Assembly: GCF_000003815.2 (NCBI RefSeq)
Contig: NC_049983.1
Span: 29,218,802 to 29,282,801, forward strand
Origin: Branchiostoma floridae
Lineage: Eukaryota; Chordata; Leptocardii; Amphioxiformes; Branchiostomatidae
DNA: 64,000 nt
Reading direction: 5' to 3'
Part shown: positions 17,154 to 64,000 of the stretch, piece by piece
Position numbering within the stretch: the first letter of the stretch is position 1
Layout: every line of letters begins with the position of its first letter
Translations under genes and position numbers: made by a program
The notes under the pieces: model-generated
Databases searched by the model: none
Seen by the model: the letters and a program-made list of their open reading frames with translations, nothing else
Told to the model about the DNA's origin: nothing

Positions 17154-18012
17154 AGTGAGTGGGAGACAGGGTCCACTGCCAGGGTGAGTACGGAGATGTG
17201 TGTGCGAACCTGGGTGTGTTGGAGACGGGGTCCACTGCCAGGGTGTGTACGGAGATGTGTGTGCGAACCTGGGTGGGTTGGAGACGGGGTCCACTGCCAG
17301 GGTGTGTACGGAGATGTGTGTGCGAACCTGGGTGGGTTGGAGACGGGGTCCACTGCCAGGGTGTGTACGGAGATGTGTGTGCGAACCTGGGTGTGTTGGA
17401 GACGGGGTCCACTGCCAGGGTGTGTACGGAGATGTGTGTGCGAACCTGGGTGGGTTGGAGACGGGGTCCACTGCCAGGGTGAGTACGGAGATGTGTGTGC
17501 GAACCTGGGTGGGTTTGAGACGGAGTGCACTGCCAGGGTGAGTACGGAGATGTGTGTGCAAACCTGGGTGGGTTGGAGACGGGGTGCACTGCCAGGGTGA
17601 GTACGGAGGTGTGTGTGCGAACCTGGGTGGGTTGGAGACGGGGTCCACTGCCAGGGTGAGTACGGAGATGTGTGCGAACCCGGGTGGGTTGGAGACGGGG
17701 TCCACTGCCAGGGTGAGTACGGAGATGTGTGTGCGAACCTGGGTGGGTTGGAGATGGGGTCCACTGCCAGGGTGAGTACGGAGGTGTGTGTGCGAACCTG
17801 GGTGGGTTTGAGACGGAGTGCACTGCCAGGGTGAGTACGGAGATGTGTGTGCGAACCTGGGTGGGTTGGAGACGCGGAGTCCACTGCCAGGGTGAGTACG
17901 GAGATGTGTGTGCGAACCTGGGTGGGTTGGAGATGGGGTCCACTGCCAGGGTGAGTACGGAGGTGTGTGTGCGGACCTGGGTGGGTTGGAGGCGGGGTCC
18001 ACTGCCAGGGTA
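17154..18012 (+). repeat. 59-bp minisatellite, array 1 (~14.5 units)
   Basis: The period is 59 bases. Each unit reads TGCGAACCTGGGTGGGTTGG, then AGACGGGGTCCACTGCCAGG, then GTGAGTACGG and a GT-rich spacer. In one frame a unit encodes CEPGWVGDGVHCQG, the end of an EGF domain, directly followed by a consensus 5' splice site (CCAGG|GTGAGTA). Since 59 is not a multiple of three, the array is not a coding repeat. Long open frames on either strand here arise because few stops occur in the unit. Confidence 0.92.
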
Positions 18013-19860
18013 GGTCCGGAATATTTGCCGGTTTTACTGGTATGCAATATAATATTGTAGGCTAAATGATCAAAGCTAAAAGGAAAGAACAAAGGTTAAC
18101 TAGTACACAGAGTACGGAAAGGTGGGAACATTCGCCGGGTTCGTTGTTGCTGCTGTTCAGCTCTGATCCTCCTCACTATTATTGAACTACTGACTTTTGT
18201 TGTCCGACTCCGAGGATCTTGTATGAGGCTTGGTAGCTGTGATGAAAAGTGTTTTCAATGTCATAGAAGCAGTCCTTCGCGACGCTCTTGTCCTGGCCAT
18301 TTATTTGTCAGTTAGAACCAGAAGCTTTGGCTGACGGATTGAACGAAGCATGAATGGCCTGTTTTACTCCATTCCCCTCCGTAGAGAAGCCGTGTGGAGA
18401 TTTCCCTGACGCATGGAACACCTCCGAAGTAACGGTACACTGCGACTACAACTACCGTGAGACATGGCGGGACCTCAACGTGGTGGATGTCCTTGGTCGC
18501 TGTAATGTTTCCTGCCGGAATGAGAAAATGCTAGTTGGACCGTCTGTAGAACACGTGCCTCTCAGCTCCACCTATTACTGCATCGCTAACAATGCCCAAT
18601 GGGACGGTGTCAAGCCCGTCTGCATCGGTAGGTGACATTTTTTTCTGAGCGTACCTGAGTTTTGTTTCTAAAGGCTTTATTTGCTTGTGCCTTTTCCTGG
18701 GTTTGTTTCTAAATGACGCTTTGCTTGTATCTTTACCCATGTTTCATGATCAAATGATACCTTGCTTCTTATTGTCTTGACAAACGTTAAAGTTTTCGTC
18801 TTTATAAACGTATTCTACCTAGATCAATCTACCCAGATTTTTAATAGACCATTAATAGCCGTCTTTCACAGAGTCCACAAGGAGAGGAATAGAAACGTCG
18901 ACCATCTGTGACGTACAACATATCTTTACATATCCTTGGTAAATAATAAGCATTTAAGTTAGTCTTGTTTAGACCGAAAGAATATCTAACTCATACCGAA
19001 AACCATCTGATTTTGTTCAGTTTGTTTGCTTATTGATTCGCACACCAAAAAATTAAACAAAATACAATTATAGTAATGAATAACGTAGTGCAGGAGGAGG
19101 GGAAAAGCAAGTCCATGAGGCGGGGGGAGGGGAGCACGCGCGGCTTATGCTTAGCCTTCCTCCATTGAGCTAAAGAAATTTGAAAGGAAATATTTGTATC
19201 ATCAGGAAATAGGATAAAAAGATACTATGATTGGGGATGATTCAGCAGGATCATTAGCATATGCTAAAAACAATTGGGGACCTGGAATTGAGTCGTAGGG
19301 AACTCCACAATTTACCGGTTTGAATTATGATTAAGGTTTAGACCGAAGTGACATCTAAGTCATACTGAACAACCATCTGAATCAGCAGGCAATCTTACCA
19401 GGGCAGGCCGTGGTCTACATTAACATGTAATTCATGGATCACCTTAGATATTTCAGAAACTCATTATTGACCGAGGGCATTCCAGACGTTGTGACTAGAC
19501 CATTGAGGATACGTCAACACAGTAACTCAGCGGTACTAGTATACTACGCAAAAGCCAGTTATCATCAGCAATGGATAACGACATATGTTTAATCCTTAGT
19601 CACGAATATCCTTTATAAAAACAAAAAAATATGATACGAAGAAGTTTTCCATCTAACGACACAGCCGGTTAAACTCGTCGCGCATCATCAGGTGACAATT
19701 GATAACGATTCTTCACTAATTTATACTCTCCTCTTTAATAACAGGTGAGCTTGACAACTCGGATGTTAGAGAAAGCAAAGCCAACCGGGTCCGGCTGGTG
19801 GGGGGAGAGTTCTATGGCTGCGTGGAGCTGTACGATGACGTCACACAGCAGTGGGGGCCT
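17820..19860 (+). repeat. tandem segmental duplication, copy 1
   Basis: Matches 20710-22750 at a constant offset of 2,890 bases, apart from a few bases (for example a short A-run deletion near 22514 and C-to-T changes near 22535). The copy begins inside minisatellite array 1 and ends inside the SRCR2 exon. It contains CCP-D and the whole following intron. Confidence 0.92.
18385..18627 (+). CDS. CCP-D exon, selectin-type sushi domain
   Basis: Phase 1-1 exon of 243 bases between CCCCTCCGTAG and ATCG|GTAGGT. Translation EKPCGDFPDAWNTSEV, then HCDYNYRETW, GRCNVSCRNEKMLVGPSVE, YYCIAN and QWDGVKPVCIG, with six cysteines. Its coding sequence appears identical to CCP-E at 21275-21517, reflecting a young tandem duplication. 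Confidence 0.88.
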
Positions 19861-20209
19861 GTCGTTGGGTATGAGCTCCCGTCACCGGTCACGCCGAATA
19901 CCCGGATGGCCTGGGCCGACCTAGTCTGCAGAGATGTCGGGTTTACTGGAGGTTTGGCCACTCAAGGGTTTCTACCAGGCGAGTCTGACCTCACACCGAT
20001 GTCAAGCCACTTTTACCCCTCCTACACCAGGCCTAGCGAGACCGGCCCGACATTCTTCCTGAACACGAGTTCACCTGTGGCGGAGGGACGAGTTCAGCAC
20101 CTGTACGACACTGTGTACCGGATAGTCCCGGGCAAATGCACGGGATCAGAGATCACATCGGACTGTGATCAGCACCTCATGTGTTTGGTCTGTCGAGATG
20201 AGCTTGAAC
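19745..20209 (+). CDS. SRCR2 exon, SRCR-like domain
   Basis: Phase 1-1 exon of 465 bases between TAACAG and GAAC|GTAAGT. It encodes ELDNSDVRES, then NRVRLVGGEFYGCVELYDD, MAWADLVCRDVGFTGGLATQ, FFLNTSSPVAEGRVQHLYDT and SDCDQHLMCLVC. The first ~115 bases are essentially identical to SRCR3, but the remainder differs from SRCR3 (for example VVGYELPSPVTPNTR here against SGRGFVEYYWTSNR there). Confidence 0.78.
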
Positions 20210-20453
20210 GTAAGTTGTAAGTCCGAAGGTCCTTTTGTCTGATATATGTCTGTGCGTCAAAGTGCTTCACACAAACTGTTAACTTTAGACTTTCATAAAC
20301 AGCATTACTGTGGCCAGAAAGGGACGCCCTCCTCTTAGGTCCAGGCTGACTTGTACTGTAAATCAGACACCATTTGGGTGACTTTTACCGGCCGTGATAA
20401 GCCGAGTATGTACTTGTGCTTTGTTAGGGTGAGCACTAATTAGTATGATACGT

Positions 20454-20902
20454 GTGCGGGTTGGAGACGGGGTCCACTGCCAGGGTTAGTACGGAGATGT
20501 GTGTGCGAACCTGGGTGGGTTGGAGACGGGGTCCACTGCCAGGGTTAGTACGGAGATGTGTGTGCGAACCTGGGTGGGTTGGAGACGGGGTCCACTGCCA
20601 GGGTGTGTACGGAGATGTGTGTGCGAACCTGGGTGGGTTGGAGACGGGGTGCACTGCCAGGGTGAGTACGGAGATGTGTGTGCGAACCTGGGTGGGTTGG
20701 AGACGGGGTGCACTGCCAGGGTGAGTACGGAGATGTGTGTGCGAACCTGGGTGGGTTGGAGACGCGGGGTCCACTGCCAGGGTGAGTACGGAGATGTGTG
20801 TGCGAACCTGGGTGGGTTGGAGATGGGGTCCACTGCCAGGGTGAGTACGGAGGTGTGTGTGCGGACCTGGGTGGGTTGGAGGCGGGGTCCACTGCCAGGG
20901 TA
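20454..20902 (+). repeat. 59-bp minisatellite, array 2 (~7.6 units)
   Basis: Same unit as array 1 with the EGF-like end and CCAGG|GTGAGTA donor in each copy. The last four units, including a variant with GACGCGG, match the end of array 1 through the segmental duplication. Array 1 has about twice as many units, so copy number has changed. Confidence 0.92.
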
Positions 20903-22750
20903 GGTCCGGAATATTTGCCGGTTTTACTGGTATGCAATATAATATTGTAGGCTAAATGATCAAAGCTAAAAGGAAAGAACAAAGGTTAACTAGTACACAG
21001 AGTACGGAAAGGTGGGAACATTCGCCGGGTTCGTTGTTGCTGCTGTTCAGCTCTGATCCTCCTCACTATTATTGAACTACTGACTTTTGTTGTCCGACTC
21101 CGAGGATCTTGTATGAGGCTTGGTAGCTGTGATGAAAAGTGTTTTCAATGTCATAGAAGCAGTCCTTCGCGACGCTCTTGTCCTGGCCATTTATTTGTCA
21201 GTTAGAACCAGAAGCTTTGGCTGACGGATTGAACGAAGCATGAATGGCCTGTTTTACTCCATTCCCCTCCGTAGAGAAGCCGTGTGGAGATTTCCCTGAC
21301 GCATGGAACACCTCCGAAGTAACGGTACACTGCGACTACAACTACCGTGAGACATGGCGGGACCTCAACGTGGTGGATGTCCTTGGTCGCTGTAATGTTT
21401 CCTGCCGGAATGAGAAAATGCTAGTTGGACCGTCTGTAGAACACGTGCCTCTCAGCTCCACCTATTACTGCATCGCTAACAATGCCCAATGGGACGGTGT
21501 CAAGCCCGTCTGCATCGGTAGGTGACATTTTGTTCTGAGCGTACCTGAGTTTTGTTTCTAAAGGCTTTATTTGCTTGTGCCTTTTCCTGGGTTTGTTTCT
21601 AAATGACGCTTTGCTTGTATCTTTACCCATGTTTCATGATCAAATGATACCTTGCTTCTTATTGTCTTGACAAACGTTAAAGTTTTCGTCTTTATAAACG
21701 TATTCTACCTAGATCAATCTACCCAGATTTTTAATAGACCATTAATAGCCGTCTTTCACAGAGTCCACAAGGAGAGGAATAGAAACGTCGACCATCTGTG
21801 ACGTACAACATATCTTTACATATCCTTGGTAAATAATAAGCATTTAAGTTAGTCTTGTTTAGACCGAAAGAATATCTAACTCATACCGAAAACCATCTGA
21901 TTTTGTTCAGTTTGTTTGCTTATTGATTCGCACACCAAAAAATTAAACAAAATACAATTATAGTAATGAATAACGTAGTGCAGGAGGAGGGGAAAAGCAA
22001 GTCCATGAGGCGGGGGGAGGGGAGCACGCGCGGCTTATGCTTAGCCTTCCTCCATTGAGCTAAAGAAATTTGAAAGGAAATATTTGTATCATCAGGAAAT
22101 AGGATAAAAAGATACTATGATTGGGGATGATTCAGCAGGATCATTAGCATATGCTAAAAACAATTGGGGACCTGGAATTGAGTCGTAGGGAACTCCACAA
22201 TTTACCGGTTTGAATTATGATTAAGGTTTAGACCGAAGTGACATCTAAGTCATACTGAACAACCATCTGAATCAGCAGGCAATCTTACCAGGGCAGGCCG
22301 TGGTCTACATTAACATGTAATTCATGGATCACCTTAGATATTTCAGAAACTCATTATTGACCGAGGGCATTCCAGACGTTGTGACTAGACCATTGAGGAT
22401 ACGTCAACACAGTAACTCAGCGGTACTAGTATACTACGCAAAAGCCAGTTATCATCAGCAATGGATAACGACATATGTTTAATCCTTAGTCACGAATATC
22501 CTTTATAAAAACAATATGATACGAAGAAGTTTTCCGTCTAACGACACAGCCGGTTAAACTCGTCGTGCATCATCAGGTGACAATTGATAACGATTCTTCA
22601 CTAATTTATACTCTCCTCTTTAATAACAGGTGAGCTTGACAACTCGGATGTTAGAGAAAGCAAAGCCAACCGGGTCCGGCTGGTGGGGGGAGAGTTCTAT
22701 GGCTGCGTGGAGCTGTACGATGACGTCACACAGCAGTGGGGCCCTGTCAG
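20710..22750 (+). repeat. tandem segmental duplication, copy 2
   Basis: Near-identical to 17820-19860. Contains CCP-E and the following intron and breaks off inside the SRCR3 exon. Confidence 0.92.
21275..21517 (+). CDS. CCP-E exon, duplicate of CCP-D
   Basis: Phase 1-1 exon; the encoded domain (EKPCGDFPDAWNTSEV to KPVCIG) is the same as in CCP-D. Splice sites are conserved. The first base difference I notice lies in the intron just after the donor. Because exon phases are 1-1, insertion of the duplicated CCP-SRCR cassette leaves the reading frame intact. Confidence 0.88.
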
Positions 22751-23103
22751 TGGTCGGGGCTTTGTTGAGTATTACTGGACATCAAACAGGGAGCCCCTGG
22801 TGGCCTGGGCTGACCTAGTCTGCTGGGACGTGGGGTTTATCGGCGCTCTGGCCACTCACGGGTTCCTGCCTAGCGATTCCTGGCTCACACCGATGTCAAA
22901 CCACTTTTACCCCTCCTACACCAGACCTAGCGATACCGGGCCGATCTTCTTCCTGAACACGAGTGCTCCCGTTGCGGAGGGAGGAGTTCAGCACCTGTAC
23001 GACACCGTGGAGAGGGTGTTCCGGGGAAACTGCTCCGGAACACAGTGGAGCGCGGACTGTCAACTGCACCTGATGTGTTTGGCCTGTCTGAACGAGCTTG
23101 AAC
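22630..23103 (+). CDS. SRCR3 exon, chimeric SRCR-like domain
   Basis: Phase 1-1 exon of 474 bases. The first ~120 bases equal SRCR2 (GGEFYGCVELYDD), while from about 22748 the exon follows SRCR1: SGRGFVEYYWTSNREPLVAWADLVCWDVG, then TRPSDTGPIFFLNTSAPVAE and SADCQLHLMCLACLNELE. The join inside the exon indicates gene conversion or unequal exchange. Substitutions VCWDVGF and PSDSW are private to this copy. Confidence 0.78.
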
Positions 23104-23368
23104 GTAAGTTTTCAATCAGAATATCATTTTGTCTGGTATATGTATTTGAGACAAAGTGCTAAGTGTTTCACAAAAACTGCTAACTTTTCACTTTTATCAA
23201 TAGCATTACTGTAATTAGAAAGCGATGCCCTCCTCCCCGGTCCAGTGTGACTTGTGCTGTAAATCCTACACCATCTGGGTCACTTGTATACAGATAAAGA
23301 ACTAGAGGCTTTGGCTGACGGATTGAACAAAGCACTAATGATGCGATTTACACGATTCCCCTCTACAG

Positions 23369-23620
23369 AGAAGCCGTGTGGAGATTTCCCGGACGCGTGG
23401 AACACCTCTGATGTAAAGGTAGACTGCGAATACGACTACCGTGAGACATGGGCCACACCCAGCGTGGTGGATGTTCTTGGACGCTGCAATGTTTCTTGCC
23501 TGAATGGCACAATGCTAGTGGGGCCATCTCACGCATCTGCAGAACACGTGGCTCCCATTTCCTACTATTACTGCATCGCCAACAACGCCAAATGGGGTGG
23601 TGTCGAGCCCGTCTGTATCG
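23369..23620 (+). CDS. CCP-F exon, selectin-type sushi domain
   Basis: Phase 1-1 exon of 252 bases, acceptor CTCTACAG and donor ATCG|GTAGGT. It encodes EKPCGDFPDAWNTSDVKVDC, GRCNVSCLNGTMLVGPSHAS, YYYCIANNAKW and VEPVCIG. The intron before it is only about 265 bases and has no minisatellite, unlike the introns behind SRCR1 and SRCR2. Confidence 0.85.
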
Positions 23621-23644
23621 GTAGGTGACATTTCTTTTCTGAGC

Positions 23645-23830: not shown

Positions 23831-23975
23831 TATTTGAGCATAATGTTTTTATATTCTTTGTTTGCTTGTGCGTTACCAACGTTTGTTTCTAAAATGTACT
23901 TTGCTGTGCACATCCCTTCATTTCGCCTTTTGTTTCGTTTTGTTATCTTCGCTACAAGGGTATGTTTTTGGTAGC

Positions 23976-25383: not shown

Positions 25384-25616
25384 GTAAGTCTTTGGTCCGA
25401 ATGTCATTGTGTCGAGTTTAACAATTACAGTTAAGTTTGCACTTACACTAATAAATTAACTGTAACAAGAAGCAGATATCCTCGTTTCCAGTCCAGGGTG
25501 ACTGTAACCTCGACACTATTTGGGTCGTTTTCGCTGTGATAATCTTGCTCCCCGGGACTCGCCAGTAAGCACTTGTGCATTTGCCAAAGCGAGCACGGAC
25601 TTGTATGTGAGAAACT

Positions 25617-26170
25617 GGGTGGGTTGGAGACGGGGTCCACTGCCAGGGTGAGTACGGAGATGTGTGCGAAACTGGGTGGGTTGGAGACGGGGTCCACTGC
25701 CAGGGTGAGTACGGAGATGTGTGCGAAACTGGGTGGGTTGGAGACGGGGTCCACTGCCAGGGTGAGTACGGAGATGTGTGCGAACCTGGGTGGGTTGGAG
25801 ACGGGGTCCACTGCCAGGGTGAGTACGGAGATGTGTGTGCGAACCTGGGTGGGTTGGAGACGGGGTCCACTGCCAGGGTGAGTAAGGAGATGTGTGTGCG
25901 AACCTGGGTGGGTTGGAGACGGGGTCCACTGCCAGGGTGAGTACGGAGATGTGTGTGCGAACCTGGGTGGGTTGGAGACGGGGTCCACTGCCAGGGTGAG
26001 TACGGAGATGTGTGTGCGAACCTGGGTGGGTTGGAGACGGGATCAACTGCCAGGGTGAGTACGGAGATGTGTGTGCGAACCTGGGTGGGTTAGAGATGGG
26101 GTCCACTGCCAGGGTGAGTACGGAGATGTGTGCGAACCTGGGTGGGTTGGAGACGGTGTCCCTACCAGGG
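25617..26170 (+). repeat. 59-bp minisatellite, array 3 (~9.4 units)
   Basis: Same EGF-end plus donor unit as arrays 1 and 2, with several 57-base units lacking one TG. A lone degenerate unit remains at about 26487-26575. Confidence 0.92.
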
Positions 26171-26239
26171 TGAGTTCGGACGCCAGTTTTAGGGGTTCAC
26201 AATATGATATTGTTTGCTAAATGATGTAAGTTAAAAGCA

Positions 26240-28850: not shown

Positions 28851-29202
28851 GAAAGTAACATATTTTACCCCCACCCTCCGAGACTATGGCGAGTGCGGGG
28901 AAGACCAACTGCTCCCCACATGCCTCCTGTTGTATCCAATATGTAACACAATCCAAGACGTGCTTCGACGCACATTCTTGATATCCGGAACATGTACCTA
29001 ACCGGTAACATGTTTCACCCCCTCCCAGATGACGAGTGCTCGGAGTCGGAGAAGACCGACTAGTACTGTTCCCAGCACGCCGCCTGTTGTATCCAATATG
29101 TGCTGCTATCCAAGACGTGCTTCGAAGCACATCCTGGATATAAGCACATCCTGGATATCCAGAACACGTACCTTACCTGTAACATGTTTCCCCCTCCCCC
29201 AG
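28851..29202 (+). repeat. two decayed tandem copies of the EGF2 acceptor edge
   Basis: Copies near 28860-28935 and 29010-29098 repeat the pyrimidine tract, AG and first ~60 bases of the EGF2 exon (GACGAGTGCTCGGAGTCGG in the second). The second has a TAG where the real exon has TGC; the first has small deletions. Spacing is about 150-175 bases. Confidence 0.85.
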
Positions 29203-29358
29203 ACTATGACGAGTGCTCGGAGCCGGAGAAGACCGACTGCTCCCCGCACGCCGCCTGTCTCAACACCGTCGGCTCCTTCTCATGCAGCTGCATCATGGGA
29301 TACCAGGACAAGTCCCCGGATGTAATCTCGCGCCCGGGAAGGATTTGTGAACCAGCCG
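29203..29358 (+). CDS. EGF2 exon, calcium-binding EGF-like domain
   Basis: Phase 1-1 exon of 156 bases between CCCCCTCCCCCAG and GCCG|GTACGC. It encodes DYDECSEPEKTDCSPHAACL, NTVGSFSCSCIMGYQDKSPD and a final GRICEPAG: six cysteines and the calcium-binding DYDEC start. It is the last certain exon of the gene. A degenerate EGF-like piece follows at 29715-29808. Confidence 0.88.
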
Positions 29359-34153: not shown

Positions 34154-35152
34154 TTAAGCAGCAAGTATTTTAGTTTCAAGAGTAAGTCGAAGAAGAAGCT
34201 GTGTGACATGTAACATATTAATTTTGATGTTTCTATTGCAATATTCAATATATGTTTGGTACCTGGCGCTGTCGTTGTCATCAAACCAGGAGTGACCATC
34301 AACTCCTGACGTCATAGTGGTGGTACCCGGACTAACCGTGGTAGTGACTTCGGGTGTGAAACGAACTCCAGTCAACCTGGTGGTACCCGGACCAACCGTG
34401 GTAGTGACTCCGGGTGTGCCACCAACTCCAGTCATAGTGGTGGTACCCGGACCAATCGTGGTAGTGACTCCGGGTGTGCCACCAACTCCAGTCATAGTGG
34501 TGGTACCCGGACTAACCGTGGTAGTGACTCCGGGTGTGCCACCAACTCCAGTCATAGTGGTGGTACCCGGACCAACCGTGGTAGTGACTCCGGGTGTGCC
34601 ACCAACTCCAGTCATAGTGGTGGTACCCGGACCAACCGTGGTAGTGACTCCGGGTGTGCCACCAACTCCAGTCATAGTGGTGGTACCCGGACTAACCGTG
34701 GTAGTGACTCCGGGTGTGCCACCAACTCCAGTCATAGTGGTGGTACCCGGACCAACCGTGGTAGTGACTCCGGGTGTGCCACCAACTCCAGTCATAGTGG
34801 TGGTACCCGGACCAACCGTGGTAGTGACTCCGGGTGTGCCACCAACTCCAGTCATAGTGGTGGTACCCGGACCAATCGTGGTAGTGACTCCGGGTGTGCC
34901 ACCAACTCCAGTCATAGTGGTGGTACCCAGACCAACCGTGGTAGTGACTTCGGGTGTGACACGAACTCCAGTCAAAGTGGTGGTACCCAGACCAACCGTG
35001 GTAGTGACTTCGGGTGTGACACGAACTCCAGTCAAAGTGGTGGTACCCGGACCAACCGTGGTAGTGACTCCTTGCAAATTGCTGGTACCTGCAGCAGCCG
35101 TGGTCGTCACTTCAGGTGGGATAGGGATAGTTGTGTTGCCTAGTGTTGACAT
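34154..35152 (-). CDS. Thr-rich mucin-like 60-bp coding repeat
   Basis: A perfect 60-base period, about 13 units, keeps one frame open on the minus strand with the 20-residue unit GTPGVTTTVGPGTTTMTGVG. Thr and Pro content suggests a densely O-glycosylated stalk. The N-terminal units are more diverged (VRVTPEVTTTVGLGTTTLTG), and a 1-base slip ends the frame in the last unit near 34300, where CAG|GTACC could be a donor. No flanking domain is certain; a C-type lectin exon lies about 0.9 kb upstream on the same strand and could belong to the same gene. The opposite strand is also open, as expected from a 60-base unit without stops. Confidence 0.6.
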   Translation of the reverse strand: MSTLGNTTIPIPPEVTTTAAAGTSNLQGVTTTVGPGTTTLTGVRVTPEVTTTVGLGTTTLTGVRVTPEVTTTVGLGTTTMTGVGGTPGVTTTIGPGTTTMTGVGGTPGVTTTVGPGTTTMTGVGGTPGVTTTVGPGTTTMTGVGGTPGVTTTVSPGTTTMTGVGGTPGVTTTVGPGTTTMTGVGGTPGVTTTVGPGTTTMTGVGGTPGVTTTVSPGTTTMTGVGGTPGVTTTIGPGTTTMTGVGGTPGVTTTVGPGTTRLTGVRFTPEVTTTVSPGTTTMTSGVDGHSWFDDNDSARYQTYIEYCNRNIKINMLHVTQLLLRLTLETKILAA

Positions 35153-43003: not shown

Positions 43004-43158
43004 CTGTAGCTGTGGGGTCTCCCCCCTGGATCATGAAGCCCTTGATGATCCTGTGAAACTTGACACCGCTGTAGTACCCCCTCCGAGCCAGCTCAGCGAA
43101 GTTGCAGCAGGTTCTGGGTGCGTGCAGCCAGTACAGCTCTACAACTATGGTACCCATA
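43004..43158 (-). CDS. PPIL1: PPIL1 exon 2
   Basis: 155-base exon, acceptor CCCTGTACAG, donor ACAG|GTAACC. It encodes [40 protein letters not shown] and [11 protein letters not shown], including the catalytic Arg of FHRII and the Gln of MIQGGD. The first ~27 exon bases and the acceptor are repeated three more times upstream (43159-43373), so four potential 3' splice sites compete. This one gives the standard protein. Confidence 0.96.
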
Positions 43159-43373
43159 CTGTACAGGGAACAGGTTAGGGTTATACTATAGTACAGCTCT
43201 ACAACTATAGTACCCATACTGTACAAGGAACAGGTTAGGGTTATAACTTATAGTACAGCTCTACAACTTTGGTACCCATAGTCCCATACTGTACAGGGAA
43301 TGGAACAGGTTAGGGTTATACTATAGTACTGCTTCACTACTTTGGTACCCATACTGTACAGGGAGGATAAAGG
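43129..43373 (-). repeat. tandem copies of the PPIL1 exon 2 acceptor edge
   Basis: Four units of about 50-73 bases each contain the pyrimidine tract, GTACAG and the exon start TATGGGTACCATAGTTGTAG (copies vary). The first unit is the real exon edge. The second lies exactly 60 bases upstream and keeps the frame open. The units also carry a TAACCCTAACC stretch. Confidence 0.92.
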
Positions 43374-47413: not shown

Positions 47414-47504
47414 TCAGTCCACATCGAAGTCGCTGTCGTCGTCCTGACTGTGGGACTCCTGCAGAACGGTCGGCACGTCCGCTTTAGACTGGAGCAGCCC
47501 GTGT
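47414..47504 (-). CDS. PDCL: phosducin-like protein, last exon
   Basis: 91-base terminal coding exon, acceptor CTCACCCCAG, stop TGA at 47414-47416. It encodes EHGLLQSKADVPTVLQESHS and an acidic end QDDDSDFDVD, matching the GLL... and acidic tail of phosducin-like proteins. Part of the exon and its acceptor are duplicated at 47617-47732. Confidence 0.88.
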
Positions 47505-47732
47505 CTGGGGTGAGGAGAGACAACAGCATATGTAAGATAGATCAAAACTGTCTCCCTAACTATAACCCTAACCCTAACCTCTAACCTCTAACCCCTAACC
47601 ATAACAACTAATGCCTGCAGAACGGTCGGCACATCCGCTTTGGACTGGAGCAGCCCGTGTCTGGGGTGAGGAGAGACAACAGCAGATGTAAGCTAGATTA
47701 AAACTGTCTCCCTAACCCTAACCCTAACCCTA
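47461..47732 (-). repeat. duplicated acceptor edge of the phosducin-like last exon, with telomere-like tracts
   Basis: 47461-47578 and 47617-47732 are near-identical direct copies containing the first ~44 exon bases, the acceptor and the upstream intron. Both are joined to CCCTAA-rich tracts (47556-47600 and 47711-47735). Confidence 0.9.
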
Positions 47733-47937
47733 ACGCTAACAGCGTTAGACTGCAATGTTAGTGTGTGCGAGCACTGCTTGGATGCATGTTTGTGTGCGTG
47801 TTCATTATTTGTGCTTGTACTATACGTAAGGATGCCTACAAGGACAACTACATTACTCATAATCTGCACAGTTGTGTGTCCTTTTTGCAACACTACAGGA
47901 GAGAAGGAACAACATGCAGAAACACAAGACGTCTTAC

Positions 47938-54808: not shown

Positions 54809-55056
54809 GTAAGCACTGCATCATGGGTAGTGTTCTCAGTGATGTCATAGGTCAATGCTGGGGGTGTGGGTGTGATGCTGCACTGACGACTGGGAAAGTA
54901 AAAACCTAATGTTCCTAGGCCTGATGATTCCCCCTGCTGCTGTTGTGCAGAAAGTGGTTCTGATGTTGTTGTTTACCACATGTTGCTGTTTACATGTTTA
55001 CCTGTTGTTGTTTACCTGTTGTTGTTTATATGTTGTTGTTTATATGTTGTCCCCAG

Positions 55057-55149
55057 GCTGATGAACCCCCTGGCAATGCTCGTCGGCACGATGCTGGTTG
55101 CCGTGGTTATGTTGTTGTTTACCTGTTGTTGTTTACTTGTTGTCCCCAG
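55057..55149 (+). repeat. upstream copy of the ARL6IP5 exon 3 acceptor edge
   Basis: TGTCCCCAG plus GCTGATGAACCCCCTGGC and about 30 further bases repeat the true exon start at 55150, exactly 93 bases upstream. The frame stays open from this copy through the true exon. Confidence 0.92.
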
Positions 55150-55367
55150 TCTGACGAATCCCCTTGCGATGCTGGTTGGCACGATGCTCGTCACCGTGGT
55201 TTTTGCGGCCTTCATCACGCTGACGGAGAACCAGCGCCAGCTGCAGCGGTTCAAGAAGGACCACCCGACGGTCTGCGTGGCCGGCCTGCTCGCCGCATGC
55301 TACTTCATCATGCGCACCTTCCAGCTGCTGCTAGTCTTCGTCTTTGGCATCACCCTGCCTCTGCTAG
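55150..55367 (+). CDS. ARL6IP5: ARL6IP5 exon 3
   Basis: 218-base exon, phase 2 to 1, acceptor TTGTCCCCAG, donor GCTAG|GTAAAG. It encodes LTNPLAMLVGTMLVTVVFAA, a loop RQLQRFKKDHPTV, and CVAGLLAACYFIMRTFQLLL with FVFGITLPLL: the hydrophobic hairpins of the PRA1 domain. An upstream copy of its acceptor edge and a long array of its donor edge flank it. Confidence 0.95.
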
Positions 55368-56500
55368 GTAAAGTCATGCTAGGTATCACCCAACTCTACT
55401 AGGTAAGGTCACATTGCTAGGTAAGGTTACGCTAGGCATCACCCTGCCTCTGCTAGGTAAGGTCACCCTGCCTCTGCTAGGTAAGGTCACATTGCTAGGT
55501 AAGGTCATGATAGGCATCACCCAGCCTCTGCTAGGTAAGGTCATACTGCTAGGTAAGGTCATGATAGGCATCACCCTGCCTCTGCTACATGTAAGGGCAC
55601 ACTAGGCATCACCCAGCCTCTGCTAGGTAAGGTCACCCTGCCTCGGCTAGGTAAGGACACGCTGCTAGGTAAGGACATGCTAGGTATCACCCACCTCTGC
55701 TAGGTAAGGTCACATTGCTAGGTAAGGTCATGATAGGCATCACCCTGCCTCTGCTACATGTAAGGGCACACTAGGCATTACCCTGCCTCTGCTAGGTAAG
55801 GTCATGCTGCCTCTGCTAGGTAAGGTCACGCTGCCTCTGCTAGGTAAGGTCATGCTAGGCATCACCCTGCCTCTGCTAGGTAAGGTCATGCTAGGCATCA
55901 CCCTGCATCTGCTATGTAAGGGCACTCTAAGCATCACCCAGCCTCTGCTAGGTAAGGTCATACGGCTAGGTAAGGTCATGCTAGACATCTCCCTGTCTAT
56001 GCTAGGTAAGGTCAAACTGCTAGGTAAGGTTACCCAGGTAAGGTCATGCTAGGCATCACCCTGCCTCTGCTAGGTTAGGTCACCCTGCCTCTGCTAGGTA
56101 AGGTCATGCTGCCTCTGCTAGGTAAGGTCACCCTTCCTCTGCTAGGTAAGGTCACCCTGCCTCTGCTAGGTAAGGTCATGCTGCCTCTGCTAGGTAAGGT
56201 CATGCTGCTAGGTAAGGTCATGCTGCTAGGTAAGGTCATGCTAGGCATCACCCTGCATCTGCTATGTAAGGGCACTCTAGGCATCACCCAGTCTCTGCTA
56301 GGTAAGGTCATACGGCTAGGTAAGGTCATGCTAGACATCTCCCTGTCTATGCTGGGTAAGGTCAAACTGCTAGGTAAGGTTACCCTGCCTCTGCTAGGTA
56401 AGGTCATGCTAGGCATCACCCTGCCTCTGCTAGGTTAGGTCATGCTAGTCAACACCCTCTGCTAAGTAGGTTAATGCTTGAAATCAGCCAGCCTCTGCTA
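55349..56500 (+). repeat. minisatellite of ARL6IP5 exon 3 donor edges
   Basis: Starting at the real exon end, GGCATCACCCTGCCTCTGCT/AG|GTAAGG is repeated in units of mixed length (about 17 to 46 bases), each with CTAGGTAAGG. More than 30 potential 5' splice sites follow one another. Confidence 0.93.
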
Positions 56501-56626
56501 GGTTAGGTCTCATCTGATAAATGAACTGAACTGAACTGTTTTCTCCCTACTCACTAGCGTCCTCTGGCAGAGCCCTGCAGTAGCACAGGTAGTAAACAAT
56601 TGTTTGTTTGTTTATCTCCTGCCCAG

Positions 56627-56766
56627 TTGTCCTTGTGCACGCCTCTCTGCGGATGCGAAACCTGAAGAACAAGCTGAGTAACAAGGTGGAGTCCATCGGC
56701 ATCAAGCGCACCCCGATGGGCATTCTGCTGGAGGCACTGGGACAGGAACAGGAGGCCGGCTCATAA
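56627..56766 (+). CDS. ARL6IP5: ARL6IP5 terminal coding exon
   Basis: Acceptor CTCCTGCCCAG, phase 1, stop TAA at 56764-56766. It encodes [40 protein letters not shown] and QEAGS. The HASLR-x-RNLKNK and KRTPMGI blocks are hallmarks of ARL6IP5. The last ~50 coding bases, the stop and following 3' UTR are tandemly repeated. Confidence 0.95.
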
Positions 56767-57520
56767 ACGCCTCCTAGCAGGACCCGACAGTACTGCAGTA
56801 CCGATGGCATCCTGCAGGAGGCCGGCTCATAAACGCCCCCTAGCAGGACCCTACAGTACTGCAGTACTGATAGCATCCTGCTGGAGGCGCTGGGGCAGGA
56901 GCAGGAGGCCGGCTCATAAACGCCTCCTAGCAGGACCTGACAGTACTGCAGTACCGATGGCATCCTTCTGGAGGCGCTGGGGCAGGAGGCTGGCTCATAA
57001 ACGCCTCCTAGCAGGACCTGACAGTACTGCAGTACCGATGGCATCCTTCTGGAGGCGCTGGGGCAGGAGGCTGGCTCATAAACGCCTCCTAGCAGGACCC
57101 GACAGTACTGCAGTACTGATAGCATCCTGCTGGAGGCGCTGGGACAGGAGGCCGGCTCATAAACGCCTCCTAGCAGGACCCGACAGTACTGCAGTACCGA
57201 TGGCATGCTGCTGGAGGCGCTGGGGCAGGAGGCCGGCTCATAAACGCCTCCTAGCAGGACCCGACAGTACTGCAGTACCGATGGCATGCTGCTGGAGGCG
57301 CTGGGGCAGGAGGCCGGCTCATAAACGCCTCCAGCAGGACCCGACAGTACTGCAGTACCGATGGCATGCTGCTGGAGGCGCTGGGGCAGGAGGCCGGCTC
57401 ATAAACGCCTCCAGCAGGACCCGACAGTACTGCAGTACCGATGGGCATCCTGCTGGAGGCATTTGGGCAGAAGGCTGGCTCATAAACGCCTCCTAGCAGG
57501 ACCCGACAGTACTGCAGCTA
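56716..57520 (+). repeat. minisatellite of the ARL6IP5 C-terminus, stop codon and 3' UTR
   Basis: Ten units of about 67-88 bases contain GGAGGCCGGCTCATAAACGCC and ACAGTACTGCAGTACCGATG. The first unit is the real gene end. Each later unit keeps the coding-like part and the TAA, although it is not translated after the first stop. Confidence 0.93.
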
Positions 57521-58470
57521 CTAGTAAACAGTAAACATGATATCATTACTGTACCAGTAGATAGAAATTCATCTGTGTCGATATGTTACAGATTTTTAGC
57601 CTTCCTCAGAAGTTTGACCGACTATCCTTACCCTGATCTTAGGAAAGTATTGAGTGGGTCACTTGCTCATCTCACACTTTCCTAACATCAGTGTGTTTAG
57701 CGGGAAAGTCGACCAGACAACCGGAGTCTGGTGGACACGGCAGCAAATTGAGCTGAAATCTTGGCACATCGTTGGATTGGGTTGAAACTTTCAAATTATC
57801 ATAGCATCATGGTGGAATCCTAGGCCTACATAGTTTTGATGGGACAAAAATTTAAACAGACATCTTTGGCAGATTGAACAAATAGTAATCAGCTTTGTCT
57901 ATATCGAGAAGAATTCAAAACTCACGCAGCTCATTTTCAGAAGACTGTGCATGTGTGCCATCTAGCTGATCCTTAAAGTAGTGCAGCTTTGTCCTGTCTA
58001 AAGTGGTAGAGTGATTGTGAGTGCCAGACTTTAAAATTAACTACATTTAGGTACAACAAATGAAACAAACATCATTTTCTGCTTTCACAGATAATCAATT
58101 TTCTGGATATTATGAAATTTTCCTTTCAAAAATACAGAATTCCAAAAGTACAGATTTCTCCTTTCAGCTATCAAGATGTGACAAATCAATTGAAACAAAT
58201 TTCTTAGAATTCTAGATAATTTTATCCTGCCAGATTCCTGTAAGTGTAAGTGAGATTCCTGTAAGGTGTTTAGTTAGTGGGAAAGGTCCTGCTTTTATAT
58301 GAAGGTACCTTTGCCCAGCTTAAATGTCTGTTTGTGTCTTGTGTCGTTTTCAATGTCGTAAGTAAGTTGTTTTCCAGTTACATGTTGAGTCAGAGACCTG
58401 ACATATAATAATATAATAGATTATGTATATCCAGTGTTGCAATATAATTAATGTATAAATAAACTTTATT
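57521..58470 (+). other. ARL6IP5: ARL6IP5 3' UTR
   Basis: No coding signal; ends with an AATAAA at 58458-58463. The 3' UTR including the array would be about 1.7 kb. Confidence 0.6.
58458..58463 (+). promoter_or_regulatory. ARL6IP5: ARL6IP5 polyadenylation signal
   Basis: AATAAA followed by a T-rich stretch, the first good signal after the ARL6IP5 stop. Confidence 0.55.
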
Positions 58471-58561
58471 CCTGTGGCGTTTATCACAGCTGTCTGGCCT
58501 TTTCCTCTCGAAGCACAATTATTGTGCATCTGAAAGTAGCCACTATTTTTTTCTATAATTA

Positions 58562-59416
58562 AGGCCATGTTGATTTGATTATATGGATGACATCCGCGCT
58601 CGCACCAATTTTCGGCCATTTCCAAAAAAAAAAGTTTTCGACCACACAATAAATTGTGCAAGGCAGCTGTAAAATGAGCACAAATATTCCGTAGATTGAA
58701 AAAAAAAGTATCAGAAAACAGATAACTAATGCCATAGAATGCCAAAATGAATCTAAAGTCAAAGAATAAGATGTGAAAGGACAGAAAGAAAAAAAATCTA
58801 TTGTTGGTTGGGGGAGGTACCAGTACAGAAAATTCAGGTCCAGAGGATCATTTCCAGGTCCGGACATGAACCTGGACCTGATTGTCTGTGGAAACTTGAG
58901 AACTGGTAATACTCAAAACAATGGTAATTGGTCAATTTTGCTACAAAGGAATCTGTTTGGTGGATTATTGGACTCCCACTGCATTTTAAAATCCCATCTC
59001 CATGTAATAAAGGCTAACTGTCTCTGTACCTTTGACTGTAGAAACTTGGTGCAATTGGCCATAAACTCTACTTGACTTCGCTCTTGTTGTCTTCTTGGCC
59101 CCCCGGTTAGACACCAAATGGCTGCCAACATAGTGTGTCCATTTTGTAATTGGCGAAACCTGTTCCTCTGTTGTTTTTTTCGGATTGGTCCAAGAAGAAA
59201 AAAATGTTTTGCACCCGTATGATGTACTGGTCCCTACACCTAACTGTTGGTATACCATACTATGTGTGTTTAGTCCTATGTTCAACCTTCCTGGCCACTT
59301 TGATTTCATACTGAAGGCAACTTTTTTTTTTCGCCAAACTTTTTTTTATTCGCTCGCTCGCATCAGTTTTGGAGTTCCCGGAGGATGTCATCCATATAAT
59401 CAAATCAACATGGCCT
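58562..59416. mobile_element. inverted-repeat element hosting a nested hAT MITE
   Basis: AGGCCATGTTGATTTGATTA/TATGGATGACATCC at the left is exactly inverted at 59383-59416. Inside lies the hAT-type MITE at 58809-59243. No transposase frame. Confidence 0.85.
58809..59243. mobile_element. hAT-type MITE, second copy
   Basis: Related along its length to 42294-42727 (GTACCAGTACAGAAAATTCA, GGACATGAACCTGGACCTGA). Flanks TTGTTGGT and CTGTTGGT resemble an aged 8-bp target duplication. Confidence 0.78.
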
Positions 59417-59891
59417 AAGTGCAAGTTTCTGAAAAAGATTATTTATTTAGCTCTTTTTACACAACCCTTACTTTATTTCGGTGACCGTCTGTCACCTTCC
59501 TAGGGCAGTTCTGACTGATTAACATTGAACCGCAGCTGTAGGTGTTCATGTAGGTGCCGCTGTTTAGAAAGAAAGATGCAGTTTCAAATGCAAAGTATTA
59601 ACAAACTTCGGTGGAAATAAAACAAGGATTGAAAAAGAGGATTTTCTTTATTTAGTGACGATTGACGAAGCAACCTAGGGAAACTTTTCACGGAAGTACA
59701 AACTTACCAAATGTTCCTCTCCTTAATACCCAAGACCATCACACAAGGACTTTCAAATTGGTATTAACTAATATTACATGTACTATATAGAGTGATTTAT
59801 TATAATATGAGCACAGTCCCTGACCCAAAACTCAACATGTCTTGAGCTGCCCATTTTCACTGTCCTTCACTCCGGAAGTTGTCTTATTTTT

Positions 59892-59920
59892 GCATTTTGC
59901 GACTTGCAGTCGCAAAATGC
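59892..59920. other. near-perfect palindrome
   Basis: GCATTTTGCGACT and its exact inverse are separated by three bases (TGC). Confidence 0.85.
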
Positions 59921-60028
59921 CTTCTGGCCAGTGTAGTCGCCGTTGTGATGTTGTGATGTTGAGATGAACGGACCTGTTCAATCCATGCCAAACATTTGTA
60001 TACCAGTTAAAACAGGCATTTCCGGAAC

Positions 60029-60102
60029 ATGTTCGCACTAGCGCAGTGGTAAAGTTTACGCATTTTAAACCAATGCACCCGGTTCGAATCCGGGGAGGTA
60101 GA
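60029..60102 (+). tRNA. tRNA-like sequence, probably pseudogene
   Basis: TAGCGCAGTGGTAAAG is a good A box, GCATT-TTAAACC-AATGC a possible anticodon arm and CCCGGTTCGAATCCGGG a perfect T arm, followed by a T run. The acceptor stem (TTCGCAC against GAGGTAG) does not pair, so a working tRNA is unlikely. Confidence 0.4.
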
Positions 60103-61460
60103 TTTTTTTCAACTTTTTTTTTTCTTTTTTACATCCATTAAAATACTAATTTTTACATCCATTTGGCCACACCAATTTATTTGTTTGGTTAACGGATTCC
60201 CCGCTTCGTTTTTTTGCCGAATAGAAATAAAAATTAAAAAAAAACAACTTAAAAATGCCCCGCAACAGAGCTCACTCAAAAAAAGCCAATGTGTAGTGAA
60301 ATTTGCTGCAGTTCACGCAAATTTTAACAGGTGGCGTCTAGATCTGCTGCAGTTCAGGCACATATGTGAATTTCTCCATGCGCCAATATCAGGTTTAGTT
60401 ACTCTGTTCTATTTATATGACATTCTAATAACTAGAAAAAAACGTTCACACACGCAAACATTGGCAAAATGCCAGCTTTTTTAAAAGCACTTGTTTTACT
60501 AACTACTGACCAGTGTTTATCCTAGCTTGCTGGAAACATTCTGAACCAGTTTTTGCCGACCCCCGATAAACAACAACATCACACATTTGAGGTTGAAAGT
60601 AATATTACGGATTTATTCGCATAATTTTCAAACATCATCATTAGTCAAACAATCAAGTCTTATCAAACAAAGTCTCGCGCAACTTTAGTTCCAACCTTCT
60701 CCCAAAGACACACATATATAGATATGTACATTTTAGCAGCATAGCAGTTAAGATCTGTTCAGTTTAAAACAAGTTCAGAAATGGCCTGGGCATGATACCA
60801 AAGCTCCGGCCACTCTTTGGACTGGCTTTAGGGTGAAGCCAACTCGGTTCAGAACCGTGGTTTTATAACTATTATTACAACTGTCCTCGGGAAAAACTTT
60901 ATGGTCATGATGTGAAGTATGCTTCAATCTGTGACTTAATTTTACAAACACTCGTGGCAAAAACACCAACAGAAGCATGCGAGTGAACTGTGAGTGTCAC
61001 AAGTTTGAGTAACTCGAAACTCTCATGGACTGAAAAATCAAACTGTAACAATAAAACTTTTAGACTTAAAATAATAGTTCCAGACATAAAGAATCAAATC
61101 TCTGCTTTACAAATTCTAGTAAAAGTTAATTTACATGTCAAGTTTCCCCTGTTTCCCTTCTCTGTCCCTCATGACAAATAAAAGCTGAAGCAGTATCAGT
61201 ATCGACGTCTGTGGAAGTAAACCCGGCCGGTGCCACTTGCTCGAGCTTGTAGCTACAGTCAGGCAGGAGAAACAACAATTTGCAGCGGCACAAAAGCCCA
61301 AACTGTTCCTCTCGGAAAGAAGTGGCACAAAAAGTGTCATCTGACGGCTCAAGGTCACACACAAGCTGAAGGTCACAGTTGGCACCATGAGGATATTTAC
61401 TATTAGGACACGGCAACTTTTAGTTCACCTGAATATAGAATTTTTTACTCAACACAGGAA
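60103..61460. other. no certain gene; probable 3' UTR of the coiled-coil gene on -
   Basis: AT-rich to 60600. A minus-strand AATAAA lies at 60612-60617. An open frame at 61138-61416 (-) has no recognised domain and is better explained as 3' UTR of the gene ending at 61827. Confidence 0.4.
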
Positions 61461-61850
61461 GGTGTGAAGGGGTTTTCGTTGCTACTTGAGTGAGCCGCTC
61501 CAGTTGATGGGGTGTGAAGGGGTTTTGGTGCTACTTGAGTGAGCCGCTCCAGTTGGGGTGTGAAGGGGTTTTCTGTGCTACTGGAGTGAGCCGCTCCAGT
61601 TGATGGGGTGTGAAGGGGTTTTGGTGCTACTTGAGTGAGCCGCTCCAGTTGATGGGGTGTGAAGGGGTTTTCGGTGCTACTTGAGTGAGCCGCTCCAGTT
61701 GATGGGGTGTGAAGGGGTTTTCGGTGCTACTTGAGTGAGCCGCTCCAGTTGATGGGGTGTGAAGGGGTTTTGGGTGCTACTTGAGTGAGCCGCTCCAGTT
61801 GATGGGGTGTGAAGGGGTTTTCGGTGCTACTTGAGTGAGCCGCTCCAGTT
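61461..61850 (-). repeat. minisatellite of the coiled-coil gene's C-terminus, stop codon and 3' UTR
   Basis: Eight units of about 48-50 bases. In minus orientation each reads ATCAACTGGAGCGGCTCACT, CAAGTAG, then 3' UTR CACCGAAAACCCCTTCACAC. The most upstream unit is the true gene end. The arrangement is the same as in ARL6IP5. Confidence 0.93.
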
Positions 61851-61937
61851 GATGGGGTTGTATTTCATGATCTCCCTGTCGAGCTGGTCCTGCCGTTGTC
61901 TCTGTTGTCTCATCTGGTCCCACTTCCACTCCATCAA
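61827..61937 (-). CDS. coiled-coil protein, terminal exon
   Basis: Acceptor CCCCCTCCCCCAG, phase 0, stop TAG at 61827-61829. It encodes LMEWKWDQMRQQRQRQDQLD, then REIMKYNPINWSGSLK. The Arg/Gln-rich helix resembles coiled-coil ciliary proteins, but I cannot name the family with confidence. It joins in frame with the exon at 62640. Confidence 0.8.
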   Translation of the reverse strand: MMEWKWDQMRQQRQRQDQLDREIMKYNPINWSGSLK

Positions 61938-62324
61938 CTGGGGGAGGGGGGCAAAAAGCAACATGGTTATATAAAGCCTTGTCCTAAAGTACAGGATACA
62001 ACATACATGAAACAAAAGATATATGATGAAAAACAACCAGAGGGGCAATGTTAGGGATGTATCACTGACTCCATCAACTGTTGGGGGGGGGGCAATGTTA
62101 TTCTATCTTTAATGATTTTATTCCACTCACATTCATCTGCTAAATGGATTTGACAAAAAGAAAAATAATTTAATATAAACTCAAAGCCTTGTCCTAAAAT
62201 GCAGAATACAAGTAGAAAACAATTACATTGATGAAAGGCACAACATAAATATTAGAACACAAGATAAATGATGAAAAACAACCAGAGGGGCAATGTTAGG
62301 GATGTGTCACTGACTTCAGATATG

Positions 62325-62690
62325 GATGTTTTTTGTTGAAATTCTCATCCCTAAAGTGCTGTAGGTACTCTGTGTGCTTACAGTCACTGTGGTTAATGTA
62401 TTAGTGTATATAAATGATATGATGTAATAAGAATATTGGATGTTTTGTCTTTACCTTCTTGTTCTCATCCCGGAAGTGCTGTTGTTCATGTATTAATAAT
62501 TGTTTATTTGCGAAATCATGCCCGAGGGCTAATTGTATTAGTGTATTAATGAATGATATTATAATGGATGTTTTTTGTTCTCATCCCTTTGGTTCATGTA
62601 TTAGTGTATATAAATGATATGACTATGGATGGTTGTTACCTTCTTGTTCTCATCCCGGAAGTGTTGTAGGTATTCGGCGCGTTTGCGATG
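62325..62690 (-). repeat. copies of the 62640 exon donor edge
   Basis: The true edge (TTACCTTCTTGTTCTCATCC/CGGAAGTG at 62636-62663) recurs near 62452-62482 almost unchanged, with poorer copies near 62325-62360 and 62570-62590. Confidence 0.75.
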
Positions 62691-62829
62691 GTTCAGGGCG
62701 TCGTCCGTGAGGCACTGTCTGTCGTGCTGCACGGCAAACTCGCTCTCCTGCTTCCGGTCCCGGAACGATTCGCGCTGCATCTGCATCCGCTCGGCCATCT
62801 GCTCCTGCAGAATCAGCCGGATGTTCTTC
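62640..62829 (-). CDS. coiled-coil protein, penultimate exon
   Basis: 190-base exon, phase 2 to 0, acceptor TGATTACAG, donor AAGAAG|GTAACA. It encodes KNIRLILQEQMAERMQMQRE, SFRDRKQESEFAVQHDRQCL and RKRAEYLQHFRDENKK, a long charged helix. The product is likely a structural, possibly ciliary coiled-coil protein; this is inference from composition. Confidence 0.82.
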
Positions 62830-63655
62830 CTGTAATCAATAATCAATAAATAATCAATAGATAATCAATAATCAATAACCAAACATCTGCATCCGCTCTG
62901 CCATCTGCTCCTGCAGGATCAGCCGGATGTTCTTCCTGTAATCAATAATCAATCAATCATCAATCAATCATCAATCAATCAATCAATAATCAATCAATCA
63001 TCAATCATCAATCAATAATCAATCATCAATCAATAATCAATCATCAATCAATCAATAATCAATCAATCATCAATAATCAATCAATCATCAATCAATCAAT
63101 CAATAATCACTCAATCATCAATCAATCAATCAATAATCAATCAATCATCAATCATCAATCAATAATCAATCATCAATCAATCATCAATCATCAATCAATC
63201 AATAATCAATCAATCATCAATAATCAATCAATCATCAATCAATCATCAATAATCAATCATCAATCGATAATCAATCATCAATCAATCAATAATCAACCAA
63301 TCATCAATAATCAATCATCAATCAATCATCAATCAATCAATCAATAATCAATCAATCATCAATCAATTATCAGTCAATAATAATCAATATCAAACATCTG
63401 CATCCGCTCCGCCATCTGCTCCTGCAGAATCAGCCGGATGTTCTTCCTGTAATCAATAATCAACCAATAATCAATCTATAATCAATCAATAACCAAACAT
63501 CAATAATCAATAACCAAACATCTCCATCCGCTCGGCCATCTGCTCCTGCAGAATCAGCCGGATGTTCTTCCTGCAGATCGATCATCAATCAATTATCAAT
63601 CAATTATCACTCATCAATCAATCATCTGCATCAGCTCTGCCATCTGCTCCTACAT
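62781..63655 (-). repeat. copies of the 62640 exon acceptor edge in an ATCA-rich array
   Basis: The first ~60 exon bases with acceptor (edge sequence CAGCCGGATGTTCTTCCTG on +) recur at about 62884-62942, 63393-63451 and 63519-63573, with a partial copy near 63622-63652. They are separated by (AATC)n/(ATCA)n runs up to 450 bases long. In minus orientation these runs form the intron sequence before each acceptor copy. Confidence 0.9.
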
Positions 63656-63754
63656 GATCAATAATTATGCATTTTAAGACATCTAAGATCTCTCAAAAAT
63701 CTTTTACTTCGTTGGTAATAATGGTAAGTGAAAATGCTGGTGTCTAAGACTCAC

Positions 63755-63816
63755 CTGTGCGACTCCTTCTCGGCAGGTGTGCCGTAGTAAGGTTTTCTCC
63801 AGGAGTTGTGAAAGCG
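63755..63816 (-). CDS. coiled-coil protein, 3' end of upstream exon (one of several copies)
   Basis: The segment encodes SWRKPYYGTPAEKESHR and ends CACAG|GTGAGT in phase 2, which fits the next exon. Which of the four identical edges is used, and where the exon begins, cannot be told because the window ends. Confidence 0.55.
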
Positions 63817-64000
63817 AAGTGCTCACCTGTGCGACTCCTTCTCGGCAGGTGTGCCGTAGTAAGGTTTTCTCCAGGAGTTGTGGAAGCGAAAGTGCTCACC
63901 TGTGCGACTCCTTCTCGGCAGGTGTGCCGTAGTAAGGTTTTCTCCAGGAGTTGTGAAAGCAAAAGTGCTCACCTGTGCGACTCCTTCTCGGCAGGTGTGC
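63755..64000 (-). repeat. tandem copies of an upstream exon's donor edge
   Basis: Units of 72-73 bases with edges at 63755, 63827, 63900 and 63973. In minus orientation each encodes FHNSWRKPYYGTPAEKESHR directly followed by GTGAGC/GTGAGT. The coding part joins in frame to the exon at 62829 (HR|KNIRLIL). The window ends inside the array. Confidence 0.9.

Follow-up and report, generated by a model that had tools for sequence, protein, structure and literature searches.

Why should so many tandem repeats in one piece of lancelet DNA begin at the edge of an exon? The question is raised by a 64,000-nucleotide stretch of Branchiostoma floridae (assembly GCF_000003815.2, contig NC_049983.1, positions 29,218,802 to 29,282,801 of the forward strand), called the window here, in which the original prediction, made from the letters, described minisatellites that copy splice sites and stop codons of unrelated genes. 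Live exon edges do underlie 11 arrays of the window, in five genes, and arrays of this kind recur in loci chosen without sight of their repeats. We propose that they are probably amphioxus mirages: minisatellites grown from small tandem duplications that are blind to gene structure and are tolerated when they hold one splice site or stop codon. The feature is real and recurrent, and it has already been named.

Arrays at live exon edges

A Tandem Repeats Finder (TRF) run on the window listed 78 rows, which were then read against the coding frames. The live-edge arrays, six at 3' splice sites, three at 5' splice sites and two at stop codons, are the following (window positions, strand, description, evidence):

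28855..29258, plus strand: 3' splice site array of the EGF2 exon; true acceptor edge 29203, clear copy 29029, a more decayed copy further up (sequence, self-alignment cluster)
43130..43364, minus strand: 3' splice site array of exon 2 of a PPIL1-like gene, three copies; true edge 43158, copies 43218 and 43353 (TRF, sequence)
47458..47740, minus strand: 3' splice site of the last exon of a phosducin-like gene, two copies; true edge 47504, copy 47660 (sequence)
55017..55201, plus strand: 3' splice site of exon 3 of an ARL6IP5-like gene, 93-bp unit, two copies; true edge 55150, copy 55057 (TRF, sequence)
55346..56509, plus strand: 5' splice site array of ARL6IP5-like exon 3; true edge 55368 (TRF, sequence)
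56749..57517, plus strand: stop-codon array of the ARL6IP5-like gene, 10 copies; the first, live one ends at 56766 (TRF, sequence)
61461..61858, minus strand: stop-codon array of a coiled-coil gene, 50-bp unit, 8 copies (TRF, sequence)
61925..62090, minus strand: 3' splice site of the last coiled-coil exon, two copies; true edge 61937, decayed copy 62077 (sequence)
62330..62670, minus strand: 5' splice site of coiled-coil exon C, three copies; true edge 62639, copy 62454, the third decayed further on (sequence)
62778..63613, minus strand: 3' splice site array of coiled-coil exon C; true edge 62829, copies 62935, 63446 and 63570 (TRF, sequence)
63750..64000, minus strand: 5' splice site array of coiled-coil exon B, 73-bp unit, 7 copies in all (TRF, sequence)

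The clear EGF2 copy lies about 170 bp upstream of the true acceptor, the ARL6IP5-like donor array holds 29 edge-spanning copies by probe, the true one counted, and the exon C acceptor is present in three good copies including the true one, plus one less perfect. Family searches support the EGF2 exon (EGF_CA, PF07645), the PPIL1-like gene (PF00160) and the phosducin-like gene (PF02114, E=5e-18); the ARL6IP5-like gene matches PF03208 at E=8e-5, below the Pfam cut-off, and takes its name from the original prediction. For the coiled-coil gene no family above the Pfam cut-off was found and a PDB search gave nothing convincing. The live source exon B lies in the 4 kb that follow on the contig (L038), and there, just outside the window, the acceptor and the donor of coiled-coil exon A carry two further edge arrays.

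The units are unlike one another, as had been stated, and a single repeat family behind all arrays is rejected; 21 of the 29 self-similar clusters compared have no relative elsewhere in the sequence analysed. Sixteen of 22 edge units have lengths that are not multiples of three. The 20 to 60 exon bases that each repeat was said to take hold for 11 of 20 splice edges, the full range of exon-side homology being 2-91 bp.

Three further arrays, claimed as EGF-type 5' splice site arrays, do repeat a donor site, and we read them as relics of one family whose source exon was not found in the window:

17155..18011, plus strand: relic array with a 59-bp unit, from the 5' splice site of an EGF exon whose live source was not found there (TRF, paralog comparison)
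20450..20910, plus strand: second copy of the 59-bp relic array (TRF, self-alignment, paralog comparison)
25582..26180, plus strand: third copy of the 59-bp relic array (TRF, self-alignment, paralog comparison)

Arrays with this unit occupy six places on the contig (C5), the three of the window and others at 29.19, 6.86 and 4.08 Mb. A full EGF-like exon immediately precedes the 59-bp array in L010, L011 and L012 (paralogous exons by tblastn; the L010 exon matches EGF_3 at E=2e-6, slightly below the family cut-off), and a search for such an exon before any of the three window arrays found none. The comparison suggests that the three descend from a single ancestral donor-site array that was duplicated along with its gene, and are its remains and not the products of three events. 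An array alone is no marker of a live exon, since the relics lack the source exon that their paralogs keep.

Relation to amphioxus mirages

Tandem repeats across exon-intron boundaries in amphioxus have been named mirages (PMC3087553, globins; PMC3902484, PGBD5). The known loci are Adh3, globin BflGb6 and BflGb9, and PGBD5, with units of 150-160 and 157 bp in globin and 10-72 bp in Adh3, the last case being credited to Canestro 2002 (PMC3087553); the precedent at an amphioxus Adh locus that the original prediction mentioned is thus a published one. For globin two haplotypes with 6 and 3 units are described, and RT-PCR (reverse transcription followed by polymerase chain reaction) suggests that splicing is undisturbed (PMC3087553).

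Units spanning an exon-intron boundary, the defining property of mirages, are present in the nine splice-edge arrays of the window, the two in L038 and nine in the blind and random loci described below; the two stop-codon arrays and the three EGF relic arrays do not span such a boundary as such. In comparison with the published mirages, our set also includes stop codons, relic arrays without a live exon and many arrays in one gene, and comes with a blind frequency, whereas it is known from the DNA of one assembly alone. New here are the extra members, the stop-codon and relic arrays, a first blind frequency, a comparison of drift and an apparent size limit.

The arrays also resemble intron gain by tandem genomic duplication (PMC4974935) in that sequence bearing a splice signal is duplicated in tandem within a gene; unlike in that system, existing introns are lengthened at their edges here, and no new intron position is shown.

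Recurrence in blind and random samples

The blind set consisted of ten compact, exon-dense multi-exon loci (65.9 kb), obtained from protein-family searches before repeats were viewed, and the random set of seventeen 10-kb stretches picked by seed (159 kb without N). Edge arrays occur in 3 of the 10 blind loci and in 4 of the 17 random stretches. The blind cases (L035, two in L037, L040) are a CCT6 3' site (68 bp, six copies by TRF), a decayed copy of a CCT6 5' site, a myosin 5' site and an adaptin 3' site whose unit has an exon share of just 2 bp; the random cases (two in L014, one each in L019, L022 and L027) are SLC26-type 3' and 5' sites, a Rrp5-like 5' site, a Cys-loop receptor 3' site and a phosphatase-like 5' site. 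Exon identity is supported by matches for CCT6, Rrp5 and SLC26, by a Cys-loop ligand-binding domain and by a calcineurin-like phosphoesterase domain, with a STAS match below the cut-off; the adaptin and myosin exons were identified by the family searches. The SLC26-type exons (L014:6120-6475 and 6991-7623) lie close together, one edge being a duplicated acceptor and the other a duplicated donor with widely separated copies.

Introns were placed by script between 37 of 67 neighbouring exon pairs, a few scoring poorly. From the blind loci, TRF arrays with periods of 19-22 (three) and self-similar clusters having dispersed relatives (three) were excluded, which left seven repeats; two of the seven (L032 2929 and L035 4186) were classed as non-edge on visual inspection, in regions with an exon that has yet to be placed. 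In the random stretches 16 of 19 tandem clusters were kept, two being parts of arrays already counted and one a transposable element (TE). Non-contiguous pairs, such as the SLC26 5' site copy (offset 555), stand outside these 16, and a possible edge or whole-exon copy at L024 4936 was left uncounted.

The window itself is atypical and repeat-rich: once microsatellites are removed, TRF arrays with a period of at least 15 and a score of at least 60 make up 10.6% of it, compared with 3.0% in the 17 random stretches and 1.3% in the 10 blind loci.

Small tandem duplications away from exon edges

Self-alignment revealed contiguous tandem duplications across the random stretches, several of them at 116-187 bp. 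Six non-coding duplications were compared with the whole genome, by a search that skips very common words, and all six matched their own locus only. A TE origin of the 116-185 bp non-coding duplications was rejected on this ground, as a dispersed family would place the same unit at many loci and none of the six did so; the unit in L021, which is a TE, was removed. That element (L021:2984-3392) is a 187-bp tandem unit of a dispersed family whose copies often form inverted pairs about 1.8 kb apart, resembling the ends of a DNA transposon.

Over all sequence analysed, 40 of 41 self-alignment clusters have units below 200 bp, the other being a complex array of 227 bp, and none falls between 300 and 4000 bp; for these 41 the smallest period per array was kept, and among them are six clusters from the EGF family, a pair from a single L029 array and the L021 element. 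When duplications of 250-1200 bp were implanted, the method found 84-100% of them, and it is blind to units of 40 bp or less (0% recovered). An exception to the size limit is a 297-bp two-copy repeat with microsatellite sequence in L015, found by TRF and missed by the self-alignment criterion, and larger non-contiguous direct repeats are also present. Tandem duplications of this kind abound in the sequence analysed, most of them shorter than about 190 bp.

Among 13 simple junctions, 8 are near blunt (0-4 extra bases) or have a 5-base overlap, and 5 are blurred by alignment gaps of 8-29 bp. Small tandem duplications are produced by fill-in repair of staggered breaks involving Pol alpha-primase and CST, as induced in cells, and natural human insertions under 100 bp are mentioned (PMC8355091). 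The copies described here resemble these products in being short, local and in tandem, with the simple junctions of the 8 cases; they differ in being evolutionary copies of mostly up to about 190 bp, and in the 5 blurred junctions. Unit sizes and junctions may fit small duplications made by break repair or replication, a link that we infer. It is a tentative and rather doubtful extension that a germ-line process of this kind is unusually active, with a limit near 190 bp (about one nucleosome repeat or one Okazaki fragment), and acts genome-wide on single-copy sequence, mirages being its exon-edge subset with a possible 2-3-fold preference for edges; the 297-bp repeat in L015 makes it slightly less probable. 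Such a limit, if genome-wide, would point to a specific repair or replication step.

Position of the edge and drift of the copies

Seeding by splicing or by R-loops would fix the place of the edge in the unit, and no preferred place was found: across 20 splice edges the exon share of the unit, divided by unit length, runs from 0.04 to 0.97 with a mean of 0.52 (Kolmogorov-Smirnov (KS) P=0.46 against uniform), and the nine edges of the blind and random loci give a mean of 0.49 (P=0.97). Four values in this test were set by hand, namely the units of the ARL6IP5 donor (30), EGF (59) and SLC26 donor (79) arrays and the exon share of the ARL6IP5 donor (22). The uniform-like position argues against duplication anchored on the splice site.

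In non-genic copies of 12 arrays, the exon-derived halves have the lower number of substitutions in 6 and the flank-derived halves in the other 6, with no consistent difference and no sign of constraint on the exon-derived halves at the level of substitutions. In 9 of 11 arrays the exon-derived half resembles the true edge more closely than the copies resemble one another. Divergence from the true copy averages 6% on the exon side and 22% on the intron side, the exon side being lower in 10 of 12 arrays, a comparison that is biased by the way the exon side was defined and is not relied on. On the exon side of 12 arrays, true edge and copy differ by 1 indel column in 652, with many on the intron side, a scarcity that comes partly from how the exon side was delimited but is not fully explained by that.

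Are exon edges preferred?

It had been suggested that the arrays reflect a process, with replication or repair acting preferentially at exon borders as one candidate cause. The many separate events, the unrelated units and the genome-wide recurrence bear out a process; one that favours exon borders is not established, and the data neither demonstrate a modest hot-spot at edges nor exclude one. When repeats with a period of at least 25 are counted, 4 of 7 in the blind loci are edge repeats, as are no fewer than 4 of the 16 contiguous tandem duplications in the random stretches, the latter a lower bound as unidentified exons escape notice. Both sets combined give 8 edge repeats against 2.9 to 4.6 expected under uniform non-coding placement, which is 1.7-2.8 times that expectation (P 0.005 to 0.07 across the edge densities tried); P depends on the assumed density, which was set at about 0.85 per kb for the random stretches and was an estimate for the blind loci. 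When the adaptin case is left out, 3 of 6 repeats in the blind loci are at edges (P 0.08 to 0.22). The exon copy accumulates fewer changes than its intronic counterparts, and edge arrays therefore stay recognisable longer, which raises their count without a hot-spot; this longer detectable life could explain an excess of up to about two-fold. The excess may thus reflect detectability and the assumed density, and is indistinguishable from what would be seen with no hot-spot. Among the papers listed by searches of an open-licence library, none showed a genome-wide test of edge enrichment.

Some results weigh against breakpoints blind to gene structure. The central edge density gives a 2.3-fold excess (8 against 3.5 expected, P=0.016), and part of the preference may be real, the edge count in the random stretches being a minimum. 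In the coiled-coil gene, 7 edges within about 4 kb carry arrays, which looks extreme for chance. An alternative measure of edge position, divided by homologous length where the intron side has decayed, is non-uniform (mean 0.62, KS P=0.02), although we think it is inflated by that decay. Gap openings in exon-derived as compared with flank-derived halves are fewer in 7 of 12 arrays, more in 4 and equal in 1.

The blind counts and the 7 edge arrays of the coiled-coil gene, together with the 11 edge arrays of the window, are what would be expected if exon borders were true hot-spots of small duplication, for example at nucleosome edges, through transcription-coupled nicks or through R-loops at splice sites. 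We consider this unlikely: the significance of the excess hangs on exon density, conservation of exons by itself prolongs the detectability of edge arrays, the edge has a uniform-like position in the unit, and a weak test for donor motifs, restricted to donors, found no enrichment in 19 array consensus units from the random and blind loci (mean P 0.49, 3 of 19 below 0.1).

Selective retention of the extra sites, whether as splice sites in reserve, as decoys or as material from which new introns arise, is considerably less probable. AG or GT is retained in the copies at many edges, the gap openings lean in this direction, and it has been proposed from the globin work that mirages give rise to new introns (PMC3087553), but substitution levels are alike in the two halves of non-genic copies, relic arrays outlast their exon and stop-codon arrays have no splice site. 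That the arrays are assembly artefacts is very improbable, for although the window has four runs of N and such arrays are hard to assemble, with copy numbers possibly wrong, substitutions distinguish the copies, edge arrays occur at many unrelated loci of the same assembly, and the globin mirages, with their two haplotypes and RT-PCR, were reported independently (PMC3087553).

Proposed origin of the arrays

We return to gene-blind duplication as the preferred origin. The seed would be a small tandem duplication, its unit mostly 45-190 bp, with breakpoints that fall irrespective of gene structure; the initiating lesion may lie in staggered nicks or in repair on the scale of Okazaki fragments. 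A duplicate containing exactly one splice site or stop codon would put an extra copy into an intron or the 3' untranslated region, and with the outermost true edge still usable the change would be silent and the copy free to drift, splicing presumably remaining correct in spite of the copies. The array could then grow by ordinary unequal exchange or slippage, while duplications within coding exons would mostly be purged. Edges would stand out because exons are densely spaced, because an array with a conserved exon copy can be recognised for longer and because the window is repeat-rich. The survival bias offered earlier as the other candidate cause fits better than an event favoured at borders, but in a modified form: the survivor is any duplication with one edge, and an origin in the intron followed by spread to the edge is not required.

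If exon-edge duplication is common, silent and continuing in lancelets, it would continually furnish duplicated splice sites, from which new and longer introns have been proposed to arise, in a lineage much used for reconstructing vertebrate gene structure. Lancelet gene models and intron lengths would then be shaped by repeat expansion, which is a caution for their use.

Further features of the window

Only about 267 kb separate the window from the end of its 29.55-Mb contig, and proximity to a telomere is a candidate cause of its repeat richness, though not one adopted here: among the matches listed for 48-bp TTAGGG runs none is on this contig. Such perfect runs are also frequent in the interior of chromosomes (174 forward and 315 reverse overlapping matches in the whole genome), and TTAGGG tracts also occur within the phosducin-like intron copies (window 47554-47740).

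Long frames at 8814-11526 and 1793-2833 resemble, by motifs in their translations, reverse transcriptase, recombinase and GIY-YIG-type pieces of retroelements. A 60-bp array of 12.7 copies at 34311-35071 has an open frame on the minus strand encoding a Thr/Gly/Pro-rich, mucin-like repeat, and its unit, unlike the 16 edge units mentioned above, is a multiple of three.

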